Below are positions 5,999 through 39,266 of a DNA stretch of 64,000 nucleotides, one piece after another. The position numbers and the translations under genes were made by a program. The stretch is from NCBI GenBank assembly GCA_029881495.1, contig JAOUMJ010000010.1, positions 1-64,000 of the forward strand, in the 5' to 3' direction. Position 1 is the stretch's first letter. Each line of letters opens with the position of its first letter. Below the pieces are notes generated by a model. It was not told where the DNA came from, searched no databases, and worked only from the letters and a program-made list of their open reading frames with translations. The DNA comes from Nitrospinota bacterium. GTDB taxonomy: Bacteria; Nitrospinota_A; UBA7883; JACRGQ01.

Positions 5999-8569
5999 TT
6001 ATGCTTCCCCTTTTTTTATCTGGTCGATCGCGCTCTTTATCATCTGTTCGGCTATCTTGGGTGTTATCTGTGTTGTTATTTTCCCGACCATTCCTATAAG
6101 CTCCGGCATTGCCAGCTGAAAACTCTGCCCTACCATTTTGGATATCTCTTCCTTTACGGAATCCTCAACCTGCCTTTCGATGATGGATCTTACGCTCTGG
6201 TCGACAGCCTCCTTGATGGCGTGCTTTAAAATATCGTTACCTTCGCCGGTGATGAGGTTCCTTATGGCGTTTTCAAGCGCCTGCGCGGGGATGGTCGGCA
6301 GCGCCGACTCCGATTCATCGCCGTATTCGGGCATCGGGAGCCTTGGGGCCCTTTCGCGCGCTTCATCCTTATGTTCCTCCTGCAGGTAGTCCCACAGGGC
6401 ATCCAGATCTGTTTCGTGATCCTTATGGTCGTCTTCTTCATGGTAGGTGGAATCAATTTCCGACAGCTTTTTTTCCGCTTCCTTTATCAGGTCGCTCGCT
6501 TCCTGCATCAATTCCGGCTCTTTTGAGGCGGCATCCCATAACCTCTCTTCATCGGATTTCTCATCTTCTTGCGGTTCCTCTACAAGGTTGTCCACCGAAA
6601 TGGTTTCTCCACCGCCAGGCCCGAAAAGATCGTCGTCCGCTCCGGAATCCGAATCCCCAAGAACTCCTCCTCCAAACTCAGCCAGAACGTCTTCAAATTC
6701 GTCATGATCTTCGCCGTCATGGCTTATGTCGTAATCCGTCATCGATTCATCTTCCGGTTCCCCGCCGAAAGGGGGGGTATCGTCGCCGTAGGCTATCTCT
6801 TCCGAAGCCGGAGGAGCTGAGGCAATATTTTCAGCCGTATCGGAGATATCAAGATCGAGATCAAGCCGTTTCCTAGGCTTTTCCTCTTCATGCCAATCTG
6901 TATACATGGAACTTGAGAGCGGATTTTTCCCAAGCGGATCATCATCCGCTACGCCTGAGGCGGCGAAAGCCGGGGCTTCGATGTCGTAATCGATATCAAG
7001 ATCTGTCTTGTCATCAGGCAATGAGTCGAGGTCGCTCTCTTCGGTCGTATCGTCTATATCGAGGTCGAGTTTTGAGGCTCTGTCGCCGTAGGTATCGAGA
7101 TCCATCTCAGCATTCTCATCCAGACCGAAATCCGTTTCACTCTCTGCAAGCGGTTCGTCGATATCAATATCCAGGTCGAGTTTTGAAGCTCTGTCGCCGT
7201 AGGTATCGAGATCCATCTCAGCATTCTCATCCAGACCGAAATCCGTTTCACTCTCTGCAAGCGGTTCGTCGATATCAATATCCAAGTCGAGTTTTGAAGC
7301 TCTGTCGCCGTAGGTATCGAGATCCAACTCCGCCTTCTCATCCAGGCCGAAATCCGGTTCACTCTCCTCAAGCGGTTCGCTGCTATCAAGGTCGAGGTCG
7401 AGTTTGGAGGCCCTTCCAACCGGCTTTTCATCAATGTCGAGGTCAGTGACATCTCCATTATCGAATGACATCTGCCCCGTTTCATCTTCAAGTGATGTAA
7501 GGCCGAAGTCATCCACAAGCTCATCCGTGCCCGATTCAATACCGGCGGATGCCATTTCATTAAATTCCTTTTCCGCATCAAAAACCGGAATATCGCCACC
7601 TGCCGAAGCTACTCCTCCGTCAAACTGCTTGTAGGAATCAAGATCGCTCATTTCTGAAAGCGGCTCCATATCAATCCTGTCGAAATCTATATCGCTCGCC
7701 GTATCCTCCTCTACATCGGGAAGCTCTTCGATCTCCTCCGGAGCAGCCCCTGCCGGTGCAAGATCTTTTCTCCTATTAGAGAAAGGGATAGTAAACTCGT
7801 CCCCCTGAATGCCTATCGGCGGAAATATCCCCTTCCTTTTCGGGGCTTCCTTCTTCTTGTCGCCATTATCATCACTTTCCATTTCATACCTGTTCAATTT
7901 CGAAGAGACTACCGGCGCGTCGAACGGGCTTGTATAGGCCTCTATTTCACCCAAATCATCCAGTTCGTTGTCCAGGTCTTCGTCAAAATCGTCGTCCAGG
8001 TCATCGTCCAGATCGTTGTCCTCTTCCTCTATCTCCAGTTCCTCCTCATCGTCAATGCCAGACGAGACCGACGCGCCAACCACCCTTTTGGAGGTATCAA
8101 GCGTGATTATCTTCACAGGTTCATCGAATGACGAAACGCCGCTGAAATAATCAGCCTTGGCGGATGCCATAACCTCTTCAGCTTCCGTATGAGCCGCCGC
8201 TTTTGCCTTTATGTAGCTATGGAGCGTAGAGATAAATTCTTCGGACTTGAAAGGTTTTGTGATGTGGCCGTCGGCTCCTGCCTCCTCCCCTTTTTTGTCG
8301 TCATATTTTTCCAGTTCCCCGGAAATAAGTACGAAGGGGATTTTATTCGTTTCAGGATTGCCCTTTACCTGGCGGCAAAATTCAAATCCATCCATTTCCG
8401 GCATTGAGACATCGGAAATGATAATATCCGGGATATCGTTTTTAATAGCCTCAAGCGCTTCGCTACCGTTACCTGCAATTACAACATCGACATCCTCATT
8501 CTCAAGGGTGAGCTGTATCACCTTTTGCATGGTAACCGAATCATCGGCGAAGAGCAGTTTCATAGCCAA
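5999..8569 (-). CDS. Receiver protein with long acidic repeat linker and helical C-terminal domain
   Basis: 856 residues, last gene of the chemosensory operon. Residues 1-122 are a CheY-like receiver with the acidic pocket at D9-D10, phosphoacceptor D53 (ISDVSMPEMDGF) and the KPF lysine. About 600 residues of low-complexity, very acidic, probably disordered linker follow. It contains a 37-residue unit (RASKLDLDIDIDEPLAESE and onward) in three tandem copies plus a partial fourth. The last ~100 residues form an amphipathic helical domain (ALENAIRNLITGEG ... KIAEQMIKSAIDQIKKGE) somewhat like the oligomerising tail of PopZ-type proteins. No DNA-binding or enzymatic output domain is present, so I infer a scaffold or localisation role. 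It lies 123 bp downstream of cheB. Confidence 0.8.
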   Translation of the reverse strand: MAMKLLFADDSVTMQKVIQLTLENEDVDVVIAGNGSEALEAIKNDIPDIIISDVSMPEMDGFEFCRQVKGNPETNKIPFVLISGELEKYDDKKGEEAGADGHITKPFKSEEFISTLHSYIKAKAAAHTEAEEVMASAKADYFSGVSSFDEPVKIITLDTSKRVVGASVSSGIDDEEELEIEEEDNDLDDDLDDDFDEDLDNELDDLGEIEAYTSPFDAPVVSSKLNRYEMESDDNGDKKKEAPKRKGIFPPIGIQGDEFTIPFSNRRKDLAPAGAAPEEIEELPDVEEDTASDIDFDRIDMEPLSEMSDLDSYKQFDGGVASAGGDIPVFDAEKEFNEMASAGIESGTDELVDDFGLTSLEDETGQMSFDNGDVTDLDIDEKPVGRASKLDLDLDSSEPLEESEPDFGLDEKAELDLDTYGDRASKLDLDIDIDEPLAESETDFGLDENAEMDLDTYGDRASKLDLDIDIDEPLAESETDFGLDENAEMDLDTYGDRASKLDLDIDDTTEESDLDSLPDDKTDLDIDYDIEAPAFAASGVADDDPLGKNPLSSSMYTDWHEEEKPRKRLDLDLDISDTAENIASAPPASEEIAYGDDTPPFGGEPEDESMTDYDISHDGEDHDEFEDVLAEFGGGVLGDSDSGADDDLFGPGGGETISVDNLVEEPQEDEKSDEERLWDAASKEPELMQEASDLIKEAEKKLSEIDSTYHEEDDHKDHETDLDALWDYLQEEHKDEARERAPRLPMPEYGDESESALPTIPAQALENAIRNLITGEGNDILKHAIKEAVDQSVRSIIERQVEDSVKEEISKMVGQSFQLAMPELIGMVGKITTQITPKIAEQMIKSAIDQIKKGEA
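7069..7401 (-). repeat. Three tandem 111-bp in-frame repeats
   Basis: Units at 7069-7179, 7180-7290 and 7291-7401. The first two differ at only two of 111 positions; the third is more diverged. Each encodes 37 residues, so copy-number changes keep the frame. The near-identity of two units implies a recent duplication within the linker of the receiver protein. Confidence 0.95.
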
Positions 8570-8692
8570 ATTAATATTCCCGGAAAATTAATAATTCAAA
8601 CATCCCACTACCATTATAGCTTAATACAATATCGTCTGCCTTTGCCCGAACATTAAGATAATGGGTTAAAAAAGCCAAAAAAAACAACATCT

Positions 8693-30863: not shown

Positions 30864-32234
30864 TCACACTATTTTATTTATCTGAAACCTGATGGTGGCG
30901 GTTGTCCCTTCGCCCGGTTCGCTGATTATTGATATATCCCCCCCATGGGCCTCCATGATCTTTTTGCAGAGGCTCAATCCGAGGCCATAGCCGCCGGTCT
31001 TCCGGGAGCGGGATTTATCCGCCCGGTAAAAAGGCTCGAATATGTACGGGAGCTCATCTTTTGGAACACCCGCGCCAAAATCCCTTACCTTCACCACGCA
31101 CCTCTCCGACTCCATGAAGGCCGACACTTCCACCTTGCCGTTATCATGCGATGAGTATTTAACGGCGTTATCGAAAAGATTCTTCAAAACAAGTCTTGCC
31201 CTGTCGGCATCAATATCCGCATAAATCGCTTTTACTGGCGGGATGAAAACCACACCGGGAGCTATCTCCCGGTACCCTTCGACAGTTTCCCTAACCAGCG
31301 CCGACATGTCGGTTCTCGCCAGTTCAAGTTTCCCGTGTCCGCTGTTCAGTTTTTCAGTTTCAAGGAGTTCGGATATCATCTTCTCCATTTCCAGCAGGTC
31401 TTCCCTGATGCTCTCCGTCTTCCCGCCGTCCGGTGCCAGTTCCAAGGCGACCTTCATCCTCGTAATCGGGGAGCGGAGTTCGTGGCTTACATCCAGAAGC
31501 AGCTGCTCCTTGGAGCGGATCATCTCACCCACCCTTTTAGCCATGGAGTTGAACGACTCGGCCAGTTCACCAAGCTCATCCCTCCTACGCCTCACGGGGA
31601 TCCTGTGAGCAAGGTTGCCGTCGGCGATCTGTGCCACCCCCTCCTCGAGCCACTTTATCGGTTTAAGCACCCATCTTATCCCGAAGTACGCGCCCGCGAC
31701 TATGAACGTCAGCAATCCTATCAGAAGAAGCGTATACTCCTCTTCCCAGTTGAAAAACCGCTTCGCGTCCCCATACAAAATAAAGTTCCCATATTCCTTT
31801 TCCACCAGAAGGAAAAATTTACCACGACGCCCTCTAATCTTGTGACTGTGTTCACGCTCCTCCTTGTATTCATCTTCGTCGCCATGCTCGCGATGCCTAT
31901 GTTTGCGATACCTGTGATATTTCTCTATCTCCTCCACCTTAGGCACGGAGCTGGAAGTGGTCCAGCTCCCATTCCCTTCATAACGTATCTGGACGGAATA
32001 TCTCTCCGCGATATCTTTCGCTTTTGCGAGACTTGGGGGATTGCCGATGTCTCTGATTATGTATTCCGCGTAGTTCATCATATTGCGATGAAAAAGGTTT
32101 CGGGAAGAAGAGCGTTCCGACATCCTGTGAAAAGCGAATACGATAAAATTGATAACCATCCCGGTGGCCAATAGCACCAACAGGAGTTTAAGGAATATGG
32201 AACTCCTGAAGCGGCGTCTGTGCCTACCCCTCAT
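30864..32234 (-). CDS. Sensor histidine kinase, Cpx-like, with His-rich periplasmic loop
   Basis: 456 residues. Membrane helices at about 13-35 and 168-188 enclose a periplasmic domain of about 130 residues. Residues 107-131 are packed with His, Arg and Glu (for example HRYRKHRHREHGDEDEY), a possible metal-binding loop. HAMP follows at about 189-240, then HisKA with H251 (DVSHELRSPITR) and a HATPase domain (NLFDNAVKYS, GYGLGLSLC). Its start overlaps the response regulator by 11 bp. The arrangement and the Spy-like lipoprotein upstream resemble CpxA; metal sensing is inferred from the loop. Confidence 0.92.
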   Translation of the reverse strand: MRGRHRRRFRSSIFLKLLLVLLATGMVINFIVFAFHRMSERSSSRNLFHRNMMNYAEYIIRDIGNPPSLAKAKDIAERYSVQIRYEGNGSWTTSSSVPKVEEIEKYHRYRKHRHREHGDEDEYKEEREHSHKIRGRRGKFFLLVEKEYGNFILYGDAKRFFNWEEEYTLLLIGLLTFIVAGAYFGIRWVLKPIKWLEEGVAQIADGNLAHRIPVRRRRDELGELAESFNSMAKRVGEMIRSKEQLLLDVSHELRSPITRMKVALELAPDGGKTESIREDLLEMEKMISELLETEKLNSGHGKLELARTDMSALVRETVEGYREIAPGVVFIPPVKAIYADIDADRARLVLKNLFDNAVKYSSHDNGKVEVSAFMESERCVVKVRDFGAGVPKDELPYIFEPFYRADKSRSRKTGGYGLGLSLCKKIMEAHGGDISIISEPGEGTTATIRFQINKIV

Positions 32235-32922
32235 CCGTCGGCTCCTCTCCGATAAACATGTAGCCGGTACCCCAGATCGTCTTCAGGTATTTCGGTTTTT
32301 TCGGGGAGTCGTTGAGCTTCTGCCGGAGTCTGCTGATAAGGACATCTATCGACCTGTTATACGGTTCCCAGTCGATGCCGCTCACCTTATCGAGTATCGT
32401 ATCCCGGTTCAGGACAATACCGGGATTTTTAAGAAATACTGAGAGAATTTCAAATTCGGCTGTTGTAAGATCAAGCGCTTTTCCGTCCTCGTTGGCAATC
32501 CGTTTTTTAAAGTCGACTTCCAGCTTTCCGTACCGGAATATCTCCTTTTTCTGCTTTTCATTGCTTCTTCTCAAGATTGACTGGATACGCGCCACCAGCT
32601 CCCTCGGCTCAAAAGGTTTTGCGAGATAATCGTCCGCGCCGAGTTCCAGCCCGACTACCCTGTCGGTCACCTCTCCCCTGGCTGTCAGCATGATGATGGG
32701 AACCGTGTTGTCTTTTCTTATCTCTCTGCATACTTCGAATCCGTCCTTGCCGGGAAGCATTACATCGAGTACCACCAGGCCGGGCCGAAGCTCCTTTATC
32801 CCCCTCAGTCCGTCCACGGGGTTTGTAAAAGCCTTTACCTTGAAATGGAATCTGGAAAGATAATCGAAAAGGAGAGTGTTGAGCTTTTCATCATCGTCGA
32901 TGATTACGATTAATTCTTCCAT
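32224..32922 (-). CDS. OmpR-family response regulator, CpxR-like
   Basis: 232 residues. The receiver has D10-D11, phosphoacceptor D53 (VVLDVMLPGKDGF) and the KPF lysine. The winged-helix DNA-binding domain spans about 130-228 (LTTAEFEILSVFLKNPG ... RSIDVLISRLRQKL). It is coupled to the kinase by an 11-bp overlap and lies 95 bp downstream of the Spy-like gene. A GTACA-N5-GTAAA direct repeat at 33586-33600 is a plausible binding site. Confidence 0.94.
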   Translation of the reverse strand: MEELIVIIDDDEKLNTLLFDYLSRFHFKVKAFTNPVDGLRGIKELRPGLVVLDVMLPGKDGFEVCREIRKDNTVPIIMLTARGEVTDRVVGLELGADDYLAKPFEPRELVARIQSILRRSNEKQKKEIFRYGKLEVDFKKRIANEDGKALDLTTAEFEILSVFLKNPGIVLNRDTILDKVSGIDWEPYNRSIDVLISRLRQKLNDSPKKPKYLKTIWGTGYMFIGEEPTDEG

Positions 32923-33017
32923 ACCACATCAGCCTACCAGATATATGAGCCGTCGTCCTCATTCATTGGAAAGAGCAAGCGGGCTCCATTATTTTCCGGA
33001 ACCCGCTCAATGTCTGA

Positions 33018-33482
33018 CTATCTATCGCACCATTTCTGGCACTTCTGATTTTTCTTGTCTACCCACTCGGCAAGCTTTGCCTTTTGTTCCGGATCAAGCG
33101 ATTTGTGGAACTCAGCAAACCTAGCCACTGCCAGACTCCTCATCTCCTTCATATGAACCTCTTTTTTCTCAAAGAGAGAGTTTATCGCTGCCTGGTCTAT
33201 TTCATCCTTCTTCACCTGCGAGGCAAACTCATTCATAAGATCTTTTTTTCCGCCCTTGAATTCCCCTCTCTTTGCCAACATCTCCACCTTGATGTCGTTG
33301 AGGAGTTTCTGCTGTTCTTCGTTCAGATCCAGCTTTTTTGTGATCTTCTTTACAACATGGTCGGCCTTTTTTTCATTAAATCCGTGATGTCCCCAATGAC
33401 CATGCCTGTGAGAGCATCCGCCTGCGGTGAAAACAAGCCCGACTATCAGTAGCACCGAAACCAGCATAATTGTCTCTTTCAT
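33018..33482 (-). CDS. Spy/CpxP-like periplasmic lipoprotein with His-rich N-terminus
   Basis: 154 residues from ATG 33482, preceded by AAGGA 8 nt upstream; 13 extra codons further up would spoil the signal peptide. The signal sequence ends in the lipobox TAGGC (C23). The mature N-terminus is His-rich (SHRHGHWGHHG). The rest is helical with the LNEEQQ motif that corresponds to LTxxQ of Spy/CpxP chaperones. In Cpx systems such proteins bind misfolded envelope proteins or metals and feed back on the kinase. Its place just upstream of the regulator and kinase supports that role. Confidence 0.85.
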   Translation of the reverse strand: MKETIMLVSVLLIVGLVFTAGGCSHRHGHWGHHGFNEKKADHVVKKITKKLDLNEEQQKLLNDIKVEMLAKRGEFKGGKKDLMNEFASQVKKDEIDQAAINSLFEKKEVHMKEMRSLAVARFAEFHKSLDPEQKAKLAEWVDKKNQKCQKWCDR

Positions 33483-33680: not shown

Positions 33681-36600
33681 TCAGTTGAAATGCCAGGTGC
33701 GTTTCATTTTTTCTATCTCTTCCTTCAGGACTTCCCCCACCTTTCCTCGGGAGGTGTCCTCCATGACCTCATTTAGCAGTCTGTCGAGAAACTTCTTCTT
33801 TTCCGCTTCATAGAAATTGTCGAGTTCCGATTTCTTTTTCATGACATCTGTCAGGATCTCCTGCCTTCTGGCGTACTCCTCTGCCTTCAGCTCTGTGTGA
33901 AGCTTCTCCATCTTTCTGCTCCGCTCAAGCTCCATCTCCTTGTCAAATATGGAGAGCCTCTTTTTCTTTTCAGCAAGTATCTCCCGCTCGAGACTGTTTT
34001 TCCGGTCAACCTCCCATTCGTGCAGGCTTTCCCGAAGATTTTTCCGCCTTCTTGAAATCTCTTCATCAAAACTTACCGTAGCCTGTTGCATCCTCTTTTG
34101 AAACTCGCCGGACAATTCTTCCTCCAGCGTATTGAGTCTCCTGGCCCTTTCTTCCTCAACCTCGGATATTATTTTATTTTTCATTACCAGCTTCTCTCTT
34201 TCAAGTTCCGCGATACTCTCCTTCACACGCTTTTCGCGAACCTTGGCCAGCTCATCTTGCATCTGCTCTTGCATATCCAAACGAACCCGCTGCGCCTCAA
34301 ACGCTGCTTCTTCCGTTCTTACCCTCAGCATATCCCTGTACCGCGCTTCAAGATTGATGTTTGCTTCATCCGCGAGCCTTTGGAAATACTCATCGATCTC
34401 CCTTCGTTTTTCGGCGCGGATCCCGGCAACTTCCGCCTTGATCGAAACGATTTTTTCCCCCTTCTCCTTTTCCAACTCCTTTTCAAGGTCGAGCATTTTT
34501 CTGCTTTTCTCTCTGGACATGAACCCTGCAAGAGCTATCAGCCTCTTTTCCTTTTCAACTTCATGCTCTTTATCCAGCTTTTGGAGCCGTCTCTGCTTTT
34601 CATTATCCAGTTCTTTTCTCACCGATTCCTCGATATCCGCTTTTTTCCGCTCCGACCACTCCTGGAGCTTGAGCTTTTCCTCTTCTTCCATTTTCCTTAT
34701 CTTGAGAGCATGAGCCTCCAGCATGTTTTTTCTCTCGCGCTCCAGACGGAGCGCCAAGATTTCTCTGCGCGCCTCCTCTTCTTTTTTCATCTGTCCCAGA
34801 AGTCCACGCATCATCGCCCCTTTTTCCTCGCCCTCCCACTCCAGAAGGGTCTTTTTCTTGAGTGATTTGAATATTTCAAGCTGTCGTTCCATCACTTCCA
34901 GCCGAGCCTTCTTCTCTTTTTCCACATGGGAGGCGATCTTGTCTTTCTCGTCATTCCTGTATCTGACAAGTGATTCATTTATGTCACGGCGCATCTCTTG
35001 CATCTCTTTTTCCAGGTTTGAGCTTATCTCAGAGCGGAATTTTACTTCTTCTGAAGCAAGCCTCTCTTCCATATTGGCGCGCATCTTATGCTCGGTTTCC
35101 TTCAAGGAGCTGAATACCGACTCAGTCCTTAGTCTTATCTCATTCTGCAGGCTCTTGTCTGTTTCCATCAGTCTGTTTTCCCTGATAGCCGAAAGCTCCT
35201 GTTCAAGCCTTTCAAGACTTCTCTCTCTGGTTATCTGTATCTCGTCGTTGAGATTTTCCTGCAGTCTTTTCCTTATGGCGTCAAGACTGGCGTGTATATC
35301 GTTCATCCTTCTCTCACGCTCCGTTGTCACCATGTGCTGAATAAGAGCTGTTTTCTTCTTTTTCTTGTCTGCGAATTCGCGCTCAAGCGTAGCGTGCAAT
35401 TTCTCTTCTTCCCTGATTATCCTTTCATGAAGCTCATTGCGGAGCTTTTCCTCCAGCTGGTCCAGATCTCTTCTAAGTTCGTGCTCCCGTGCCATGATGA
35501 TGGTTTTCACGTTCGCGTCTATCTCGGCGGTTTCCCGTTTCCTGTATTTAAGTATTTCATCCCGCGCCGTCTCCATGATCTTTGCCTTTTCCGCGGCTAT
35601 CTCCTTCTTCAGGCTTTCCTTCATATCCGTCCGCATCGTTTCCACTTCAGCCTTGAGCATTTTCAGCTTTTCGATTTTAGCGCTCTGGATAGTGCTCAAT
35701 ATCTCCTCGTTCTTCTCCCTCTCGTACCTTGCCACTTCCATGTCGATTTTCTTTCTTGCCCTATCCCTTTCGCCGCTAAGCTCATCTTCAGCTTTCAGGC
35801 GCAAGCCTTCCTTTCGGATTGTTTCATCAAGATCAAATGAAACGGAGGCTATCATCACATCCCTGAAAACATCTGCCATAAAATTTTCGCGCTGCATGGA
35901 TATCTCCTCGTACAGCCTTGATTCGAGCGCGCTTTTTTTCTGCTCTACATCCCTGTCCACTTCCCCATTCATGCTTGCGCGGTAGAGGGTCATGCTCTCA
36001 TCGATCTGATCCATTTTAGCTTTTCGCATCTCTTCAAGCTGTTGCCAAAGAACTTCCTTTACCTTGTCAATCTCTGCCGTCAGCTCGTTCTTTAGGTTTG
36101 CGAACCTCTTTTTCTTTACAAGCTCAACCTCATCCTCTATTTCGGATTCCCTCCTCCGCTTTTTCTGAAGCATTTCGGCATCGTATCCGGTTTTGGAATT
36201 TTGGTAATATCCCGCCAGATCCCGTTCCATCTCCTTTATCCGTTTTTCACGCAGGGTTTCAATTTCTTCCTCAATTTCCGTGGATCTCTTTTCGTATACG
36301 CGTGCCAGACCGGCTTCCATCTCCGCCCTTTTGGATTCCCCTTCCGCTTCAATTTTTTCGAGTTCCCTTTTCCAGGCCTCTGTGATATCTCCCTTAAGCG
36401 CGGCTTCCTTTTGAATGCGCGTTGATTCAACCTCTTCTTCCGCCACAATTTTTCTTTCGGCGATGCTTTTTTCGAGCTTCTTCGACATCTGGAAATATTT
36501 TTCTTCGCGTATCAGCTCCATTTCATTGTTAATCTTGCGCAACGCATCCAGCTCTTCCCGGGCGGATGTTACCTCTTTCACGCTTTGACCGGTCGGTCCT

Positions 36601-37568
36601 TCTTCCCCCTTAAAAGAGCCGAAAAGCACTTCGTAATCGAGTTCCACCGAACTGGTTTCATCCGGCCTCCCCCAGTTCAAGAGAGCTGAAACGATGTAGC
36701 TCCCCGCTTTTTTGAAATTATTTTCAATTGACGCATTTACGCTATCTCTTCCGCCTTTAACGCATTCAGGCATGAAAAATGTACCGCTTGCCTTGAAGTG
36801 GCTTGTGAGGAACATGTCTGAGAGCCTCCCTTTTATCAGCTCAACATGAGTAGGCGAGGCTACCCAATTTGCAACCAGGCTGATATCTGTAACTGCCTGA
36901 TGTTCCCTCCATGCGCCTTCCATGGATGGCATGAGCGTGCGCATTCGGGAGGCATACTTTAAAAGGCTTATGCCACGTTCACGCGCAAATTCATCCTTCA
37001 GCGCCAAGAGCGCTTCGAGCTCATCCCTCCCATATGCCTTGAAATTTTCAAATGACGATACGAGGATGGCGAATAGCAGTTCGTTCAGGCCTTCTTGAAA
37101 GTCTTCTTTCCCGTTCACTACAAGGAGTATCTTGTCCGCGCCCGCGTTCACTGCCAGCCTGCAACCGTCCGAAATGTTACCTGTATCGATGAGGACGAAA
37201 TCAAACTGAAGTTTTCTTATGTCCCTTAGAAGCTGGTTGCCATGATGCTGTTCCTTGAATCCTTCGAGAAAACGCCTCCCAGCTGAAATATAAAATACTC
37301 CTTCCTTCCCCGTCGCAGCGATGGCCTCGGAAAGTTTTCTGTCCTTTCTGAAATAGTCCTCAAGGAAGTATTCATGGTCGATCCCTTCCATGAAAGGGGT
37401 GATCTTCCGCAAGGAGCCCCCCATTTCCACAAGGAGTACTTTTTTACCGGATTCGGCCAGAAGTGAAGTAACCGCGACGGCAACGGAGCTTTTTCCAACC
37501 CCGCCCCCCGTACCGGTCACAGAGACGATCTTCGGCTGGGATTCCCTGCTTTTTTTAGCCAATGTCAT
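33681..37568 (-). CDS. ParA/MinD-like ATPase fused to a giant coiled coil
   Basis: 1295 residues. The first ~260 form a ParA/MinD-type P-loop ATPase: Walker A GTGGGVGKSS (19-28) and FDFVLIDTG with D128 as the Walker B-like strand. The signature lysine of the deviant Walker A (KGGxGKT) is replaced by glycine. From about 335 to 1290 almost every stretch is charged heptad-type coiled coil rich in Glu, Lys, Arg and Met, with no second globular domain that I can see. There is no membrane segment or signal. I know no named family with this layout; SMC and MukB have split ATPase heads and differ. ATG 37568 has AAGGA upstream. It is transcribed alone, divergent from the FlgM-like gene. Confidence 0.85.
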   Translation of the reverse strand: MTLAKKSRESQPKIVSVTGTGGGVGKSSVAVAVTSLLAESGKKVLLVEMGGSLRKITPFMEGIDHEYFLEDYFRKDRKLSEAIAATGKEGVFYISAGRRFLEGFKEQHHGNQLLRDIRKLQFDFVLIDTGNISDGCRLAVNAGADKILLVVNGKEDFQEGLNELLFAILVSSFENFKAYGRDELEALLALKDEFARERGISLLKYASRMRTLMPSMEGAWREHQAVTDISLVANWVASPTHVELIKGRLSDMFLTSHFKASGTFFMPECVKGGRDSVNASIENNFKKAGSYIVSALLNWGRPDETSSVELDYEVLFGSFKGEEGPTGQSVKEVTSAREELDALRKINNEMELIREEKYFQMSKKLEKSIAERKIVAEEEVESTRIQKEAALKGDITEAWKRELEKIEAEGESKRAEMEAGLARVYEKRSTEIEEEIETLREKRIKEMERDLAGYYQNSKTGYDAEMLQKKRRRESEIEDEVELVKKKRFANLKNELTAEIDKVKEVLWQQLEEMRKAKMDQIDESMTLYRASMNGEVDRDVEQKKSALESRLYEEISMQRENFMADVFRDVMIASVSFDLDETIRKEGLRLKAEDELSGERDRARKKIDMEVARYEREKNEEILSTIQSAKIEKLKMLKAEVETMRTDMKESLKKEIAAEKAKIMETARDEILKYRKRETAEIDANVKTIIMAREHELRRDLDQLEEKLRNELHERIIREEEKLHATLEREFADKKKKKTALIQHMVTTERERRMNDIHASLDAIRKRLQENLNDEIQITRERSLERLEQELSAIRENRLMETDKSLQNEIRLRTESVFSSLKETEHKMRANMEERLASEEVKFRSEISSNLEKEMQEMRRDINESLVRYRNDEKDKIASHVEKEKKARLEVMERQLEIFKSLKKKTLLEWEGEEKGAMMRGLLGQMKKEEEARREILALRLERERKNMLEAHALKIRKMEEEEKLKLQEWSERKKADIEESVRKELDNEKQRRLQKLDKEHEVEKEKRLIALAGFMSREKSRKMLDLEKELEKEKGEKIVSIKAEVAGIRAEKRREIDEYFQRLADEANINLEARYRDMLRVRTEEAAFEAQRVRLDMQEQMQDELAKVREKRVKESIAELEREKLVMKNKIISEVEEERARRLNTLEEELSGEFQKRMQQATVSFDEEISRRRKNLRESLHEWEVDRKNSLEREILAEKKKRLSIFDKEMELERSRKMEKLHTELKAEEYARRQEILTDVMKKKSELDNFYEAEKKKFLDRLLNEVMEDTSRGKVGEVLKEEIEKMKRTWHFN

Positions 37569-38213: not shown

Positions 38214-39266
38214 TCACGCAGGGAGTTCAGGGAAATATTGCCTTGCAAGCTGGCTGACCTCTTCCCGGATTTTCTGGTCGACAATTTCCGACAGGTTACC
38301 TGCTCCCGGTCTCCCCTTGTTTATCTGGGACTCATAGGCTATTGTGCCATCCTCCACATTGATCTTTGCGCCCCAGCAATCTTCGGCCCTGGAACCGTCC
38401 GCTACGAGAATATCTCTGGACTCGCTGTGCCATTTTGCCCCCGCCGCGACCTTTCTGGTTTTTATATCGGCGACTATTTTGATAATTCCTTCATGACCGA
38501 AGCTCATTGACGTCATCTCCTGCAGTGATACCGGCGCTTTTAATATCTTATTCGTGAACAGTCTGTTCCTCCTTCTCTCCCTGCTATTAACCCTTCTTTC
38601 GTGGCCGTCCCACCCTGTCACCGGTTTTTTTGCCAATCCCGGATCCGGCGGCGTTACCAGCCCCCCTGAGATGATCATCTTTATCCCCTCTTCAACTGTC
38701 ATCTCAAGTTCCGTTATCTGCGTCTTCGGGATAAGGAGAAAGAAACCAGATGTCGGGTTCGGGGTTGTCGGTAAAAACACGTTTACCATCTCCTTGTCTA
38801 CGACGGTTTTGACCTCCCCTTTCGATTCGCCGGTTATAAATGCCAGCGCGTAAATCCCTTCCCTCGGATATTCAATCATCACGACCTTGTTAAACGACGA
38901 GCCGAGCGAGTTTCCAAATGTTTCTAGCACTTGTTTCGCGCCGACATAGATATTCTTGAATATCGGTATCTTCACCAGCACCCCTTCGTACAGCTTGACG
39001 AACGTGCTTCCGATAATATTCTTGGTGAGGAGCCCAACAACGAAAATTATGATTATCAGCGCCACAAGCCCGATTCCGGGAATCAGGAATACCGTATGCT
39101 GAATAAGCCCTGTTTTAACCAGCAATTCATTTATTGCCGGCCCCAAGATTGCGTCAATGCGTATAAAAAGGAAACGGAGGAAGAATATTGTAATTGCCAG
39201 AGGCAAAGTTACCAGCAGTCCGGCAAAGAAGATATTTCTTATACTGTGTTTAGCTTTTGAAAACAT
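38214..39266 (-). CDS. DUF502-family membrane protein with C-terminal extension
   Basis: 350 residues. Residues 1-205 match the DUF502 family: two membrane segments at about 10-32 and 58-80, then the conserved soluble region with IPIFKNIYVGAKQV, LPTTPNPTSGFFLLIP and EEGIKMIISGG. DUF502 proteins are usually about 200-230 residues. Here about 140 residues follow, starting with a basic stretch (HERRVNSRERRRNRL) and continuing as a mixed alpha/beta region that I do not recognise. Inner membrane; function unknown. It is the last gene of an HDOD-metallohydrolase-DUF502 run on the minus strand. Confidence 0.85.
   Translation of the reverse strand: MFSKAKHSIRNIFFAGLLVTLPLAITIFFLRFLFIRIDAILGPAINELLVKTGLIQHTVFLIPGIGLVALIIIIFVVGLLTKNIIGSTFVKLYEGVLVKIPIFKNIYVGAKQVLETFGNSLGSSFNKVVMIEYPREGIYALAFITGESKGEVKTVVDKEMVNVFLPTTPNPTSGFFLLIPKTQITELEMTVEEGIKMIISGGLVTPPDPGLAKKPVTGWDGHERRVNSRERRRNRLFTNKILKAPVSLQEMTSMSFGHEGIIKIVADIKTRKVAAGAKWHSESRDILVADGSRAEDCWGAKINVEDGTIAYESQINKGRPGAGNLSEIVDQKIREEVSQLARQYFPELPA

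Follow-up and report, generated by a model that had tools for sequence, protein, structure and literature searches.

The gene at 33681-37568 on the minus strand of the window (the whole stretch of Nitrospinota DNA that was analysed, 64,000 nucleotides) encodes a protein of 1295 amino acids with the look of a cell-internal strut or scaffold that has so far gone unrecognised. It joins a ParA/MinD-like head, in which two hallmark residues of that family are missing, to a very long helical rod of about 60 consecutive 15-residue repeats ending in a conserved tip. The reading we favour, with a probability of roughly 0.48, is that of a class-specific cytoplasmic strut or scaffold of fixed length with a non-cycling pseudo-ParA anchor. 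Its features are as follows.

33681-37568, minus strand: whole gene, 1295 codons plus stop; one uninterrupted ORF with an ATG start
36579-37568, minus strand: ParA/MinD-like head, residues ~1-330 (from Pfam, the AF2 model and Foldseek)
37485-37520, minus strand: Walker A, VTGTGGGVGKSS, residues 17-28; P-loop Lys kept, signature Lys replaced by Gly
37413-37439, minus strand: switch I equivalent, VLLVEMGGS, residues 44-52; Gly in place of the catalytic Asp, Glu in place of the Asp before it
37176-37199, minus strand: Walker B / switch II, residues 124-131; Asp 128 unchanged throughout the family
33759-36566, minus strand: pentadecad rod, residues 335-1270 (from the periodicity analysis)
35814-36083, minus strand: conserved mid-rod patches, residues 496-585 (EVxxIREMVWQELEE; EVM..S.FD motif)
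33684-36047, minus strand: section of constant length, W508 to N1295; the C-terminus is 796 residues past the Trp in 16/18 homologues and 787 past it here
35543-35544, minus strand: place of an 11-residue deletion, after residue 675, common to the window protein and the sister genus (G001)
33684-33971, minus strand: conserved C-terminal tip, residues 1200-1295; a long and a short helix joined by a loop, with Asn as the last residue

A preliminary description of this DNA had taken the gene for a ParA/MinD-type ATPase joined to about 950 residues of continuous coiled coil, and had raised the concern that head and rod might be two genes misjoined in assembly. Open frames of head-plus-rod orthologues in same-class genomes run from 1113 to 1382 aa, and full-length versions occur in all four of the families in which the whole gene can be read (f1, f3, f4 and f5); since the layout recurs in other genera and families, an assembly chimaera is ruled out and the head-plus-long-rod observation is confirmed. 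After the head, about 935 residues of helix continue up to the C-terminus, with residues 346-1295 comprising 0 Pro, 24% Asp/Glu, 23% Lys/Arg and 28% hydrophobic residues. At 0.15 nm per residue the rod would measure ~140 nm, in keeping with the 100-nm scale first estimated and, as a general idea, with the tether- or filament-like role first proposed. Also as first supposed, no family with this layout was found in the Pfam, NCBIfam and PADLOC libraries, by which the head alone is recognised. PADLOC profiles gave no match to three family members and viral contigs held no relative of the protein; an anti-phage defence system and a phage origin, respectively, were rejected on these grounds.

The hydrophobic residues of the rod recur with a period of 3.750 residues (15/4, a pentadecad) at a power of 69.6, compared with a maximum of 13.1 in 1000 shuffles, while the power is 1.0 at the heptad period (3.5) and 0.0 at the hendecad period (11/3). 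Of the coiled coil first described, the charged helix running to the C-terminus thus stands, but not as a heptad coiled coil. All homologues peak at the same period, with powers of 50-77, and among those listed of the 525 ORFs of 200 aa or longer found in the loci, all with periods near 3.75 belong to the rod family. The phase is coherent, with a gentle drift, along ~900 rod residues, where the insertion of a single residue would displace it by 96 degrees. In the 15-residue profile, which has an a/d/h/l core, hydrophobic residues make up 87% and 81% at two core positions, and at the remaining two they are interspersed with Arg and Glu. With a 15/4 repeat the supercoil is right-handed and about as strong as the left-handed one of heptads (PMC9858780); the period therefore implies a right-handed supercoil here, and we infer that the rod forms a parallel oligomer. 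The classic example of such a repeat, the VASP tetramerisation domain, is a right-handed tetramer (Kuhnel 2004, as cited in PMC4721544), though it is a short eukaryotic oligomerisation domain, as against ~60 repeats here.

The length of the main part of the rod is held very closely. In 16 of 18 homologues, headless ones included, an invariant Trp (W508 here) stands exactly 796 residues ahead of the C-terminus. The other two are the window protein and its sister-genus homologue (locus L037), in which the C-terminus lies 787 residues past W508 or its equivalent; the difference is made up of the 11-residue deletion after residue 675, which is the sole rod indel in the fixed section and nearly preserves the phase of a 3.75 period, and of two residues inserted in the inter-helix loop of the tip. 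Window residues 700-1265 have zero gap columns (17 sequences), while the head-proximal rod, residues 335-496, is gapped in 139 of 193 columns, so that being helical does not by itself dictate a constant length in these same proteins. Compared with the other families, f1 shows identities of ~0.21 in the rod, 0.21 in the head and 0.34 in the tip. In a control, a comparable span of the SMC proteins took six values, 1172-1183, across nine of the same genomes; this too is a narrow range, and the rod, though more strictly held than SMC, is not in a different league.

The tip is the best conserved part of the protein; the AF2 model gives a continuous helix, then a short loop and a second helix, and the last residue is Asn in 18/18 homologues. 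It looks like a docking site. In two homologues an otherwise intact rod gene carries one in-frame stop, with the tip still in frame downstream (TAA at L037:12648-12650 in G001; TAG at rod-frame residue 1069 of L044 in G019); these may be sequencing errors or recent decay.

A profile of the last 140 residues detected one orthologue in each of 19 of the 24 genomes of the phylum and none in 361 genomes outside it, and the scan of named genomes gave two Colwellia loci alone, both weak P-loop matches. The five genomes without the gene (G002, G007, G006, G014 and G023) gave nothing at E <= 1 with a mid-rod profile either. One of these, G023, belongs to another class of the phylum, and over the genomes searched the rod gene is thus specific to one bacterial class. 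Within that class it has been lost about three times (in G002/G007, G006 and G014) and is therefore dispensable; the genomes without it are mostly small (rank test p 0.006, uncorrected for relatedness). Many of the genomes are in fragments; in G021 and G022 rod and tip are present and the contigs end ahead of the head position. In family f2 (G011 and G018), the orthologues, of 893 and 919 aa, start directly in the rod and keep both rod and tip. Because f2 is nested among head-bearing families on the FlhA tree, taken as the species tree and rooted with G023, the ancestor of the class most likely had the head, and f2 lost it; evolution has treated rod and tip as the core of this protein and the head as optional. 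The stand-alone ParA paralogues of f2 (L084:2743-3999 and L103:6958-7941) have GRT rather than GKT in the P-loop and Asn in place of the switch I Asp, and in G011 such a degenerate paralogue lies 2.1 kb from the headless rod gene.

The closest working parallel is Scy of Streptomyces, a non-canonical coiled coil of >1000 residues (PMC9858780) which recruits ParA to the hyphal tips and, in a functional interaction, limits its polymerisation (PMC3718342). Like the rod family, the Streptomyces polar coiled coils Scy and FilP have long rods of non-canonical repeats; unlike it, they have hendecad or 51-residue repeats rather than pentadecads, and a DivIVA-like N-terminus (PMC9858780), and Scy works with ParA as a separate protein, whereas here a ParA-like domain lies in the same chain. 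With no DivIVA-like N-terminal motif, no Pfam match to DivIVA at E <= 1 and no hendecad power, the window protein is, by the features tested, not a Scy/DivIVA member. A self-assembling cytoskeletal filament resembling Scy, FilP or crescentin, whose lateral bundles would stiffen or polarise the cell while the head only nucleates or caps them, seems to us possible but rather unlikely. The extreme regularity of the rod and its intolerance of indels would suit lateral registration, f2 does without a head, and the rod of Scy is analogous (PMC9858780); however, a charge analysis of the rod revealed no long-period stagger above the block-shuffle null beyond the 15-residue repeat itself, and conservation is highest in a distinct terminal tip and not in the rod, which docking fits better.

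The head has the Rossmann-like fold of the ParA/MinD proteins. Pfam assigns it to AAA_31 (E 8e-10) and CbiA (E 7e-8), NCBIfam gives MinD and BcsQ, both far under their cut-offs, and the AF2 model (mean pLDDT 78.7, pTM 0.82) has FlhG, Soj and MinD as its closest Foldseek matches in the PDB, at E 1e-9 to 1e-8. In the genomes searched, the head is most closely related to stand-alone ParA-like proteins from the same phylum (profile E ~1e-40; for example G000:C30, from the window's own genome, and L096:8661-9578), which resemble the head in fold and length but are of 300-420 aa and lack a rod; a BY-kinase that fell among the heads in one tree is taken as a long-branch artefact. With FlhG, MinD and Soj (ParA) the head has the fold, the P-loop and Walker B in common, but it is attached to a rod of ~940 residues and lacks both the signature Lys and the catalytic Asp. 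Hydrolysis in the MinD/ParA family uses the second Asp of switch I (MinD D40). That residue is gone in 15/15 heads, with Ser, Ala, Gly, Asn or Thr instead, and the signature Lys (KGGxGK[ST]) in all 14 readable heads; among the stand-alone paralogues, the signature Lys is present in 10/10 and the switch I Asp in 7/10. (An E. coli MinD row served solely for column numbering; the comparison with paralogues is of retrieved sequences.) The P-loop Lys is retained in 13 of 14 heads, including that of the window protein, and is Ala in L042 (G004), while the Walker B Asp is retained in all 15.

The preliminary description was therefore right about the P-loop and the fold but wrong in calling the ATPase intact, and the ATP-dependent dimerisation that it suggested is not supported by the residues present across the family. 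The best explanation of these sequences is that the head descends from a MinD/ParA-type ATPase and has lost the residues by which such an enzyme forms an ATP-sandwich dimer and hydrolyses ATP. As the P-loop Lys is so widely kept, the head probably retains some function with nucleotides. Loss of the signature Lys alone would be no proof of inactivity: type 1 beta-McdA, which positions carboxysomes with McdB, also lacks it (PMC6328274, PMC8262871) and yet, with no rod, has strong ATPase activity (PMC6328274). What points to a domain that does not cycle is the absence of both residues together. An active ParA-type positioning ATPase on a tether, with the head cycling on nucleoid or membrane and dragging a cargo bound to the tip, has in its favour the retained P-loop Lys and Walker B and the fact that McdA functions without the signature Lys (PMC6328274), but the additional loss of the catalytic Asp in every head, that of the P-loop Lys in L042 and the headless f2 proteins make it improbable.

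The neighbours of the rod gene are ordinary and differ between families; an operon was rejected for this reason, and the lack of conserved neighbours fits a stand-alone structural gene. Transketolase genes adjoin the rod gene or lie near it in G000, G001, G017 and G020, as does infC in G011 and G016, which is read as old synteny. The neighbour described earlier as FlgM-like is a true Pfam FlgM match (E 1e-5), but among the loci read it is adjacent in G000 and G001 only, within a longer shared gene order, and is not conserved in other genera. The polar or motility role guessed from it fares badly: over the 24 genomes, FlhA and the rod gene are both found in 15, the rod gene only in four (G004, G015, G016 and G022), FlhA only in three (G002, G007 and G023) and neither in two (Fisher p 0.57). 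A flagellar or polar motility protein is thus very improbable even though most members of the lineage have flagella, the FlhA distribution contradicting the link. An SMC/RecN-like DNA-bridging machine, despite the NTP-binding head and long helical arm, was rejected on domain content (a single N-terminal ParA-fold head with no C-terminal ABC half and no split ABC head, no Pfam SMC match, a tip of two helices only, and ordinary SMC and RecN in the same genomes), in accord with the difference from SMC, MukB and RecN that had been remarked on at the outset.

Three other observations were made in and around these loci. A second long regular coiled coil, of 773 aa, is encoded at L044:1718-4039 (+), with a 31-residue repeat (period 3.455, power 83.5) and a homologue in the window's own genome at G000:C9:4561-6807 (+). 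It is found in 18/24 genomes of the phylum and in one outside (G054), and lies on the rod-gene contig, ~5-50 kb off, in G008, G011, G013, G019 and G021; it tracks FlhA (17 both, 5 neither, 1 + 1 discordant; Fisher p 0.0008, uncorrected for relatedness) and so may be flagella-linked. In the window, an LTXXQ/CpxP-type periplasmic protein (33018-33458, minus strand) lies beside a response regulator (32224-32922) and a histidine kinase (30864-32234), the set at 30864-33458 being plausibly an envelope-stress module. Finally, one ORF at 38214-39266 (minus strand) combines a DUF502 membrane domain with a C-terminal DUF5674; in L037 these parts are separate, slightly overlapping ORFs, at 7649-8314 and 8304-8654.

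For the fixed-length strut or scaffold that we favour, the mechanism would be as follows. Chains would associate in parallel through the right-handed 15-residue-repeat coiled coil, ~140 nm long, and the heads would thereby cluster at one end, with the conserved tips gathered at the opposite end. The head would most likely be a static, perhaps nucleotide-binding, anchor on the nucleoid, the membrane or a true ParA partner; the tip would bind a second partner; and the rod would keep both ends at a fixed distance or pack side by side in register, which on this proposal is why its length does not drift. Besides the lack of conserved neighbours, the period and its phase, the 796-residue length, the identity of the tip, the keeping of rod and tip in f2, the double motif loss and the precedent of Scy count for such a strut, while the P-loop Lys kept in 13/14 heads, the McdA precedent, the dispensability of the gene and the absence of a charge stagger period count against it. 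More speculative, and in our judgement rather doubtful, is a new bacterial cytoskeletal or ruler protein with a section of 796 residues (~118 nm) frozen throughout the class and, in its original form, a domesticated and catalytically dead ParA anchor; if this were true, the rod would set a physical distance or lattice in the cell, and in f2 the degenerate stand-alone ParA paralogue may have taken over the role of the head in trans.

Long coiled-coil scaffolds and ParA-type ATPases are two main organisers of bacterial cell space; in Streptomyces, as Scy and ParA, they cooperate as separate proteins, and here a scaffold and a ParA-like domain are fused in one chain. The head is a naturally occurring example of a ParA domain that outlasted its ATPase hallmarks and was then discarded in f2. 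The rod is unusual both in its number of repeats and in that its main section is held at 796 residues while about four-fifths of the residues differ between families, so that what the length of the rod measures becomes a testable question.
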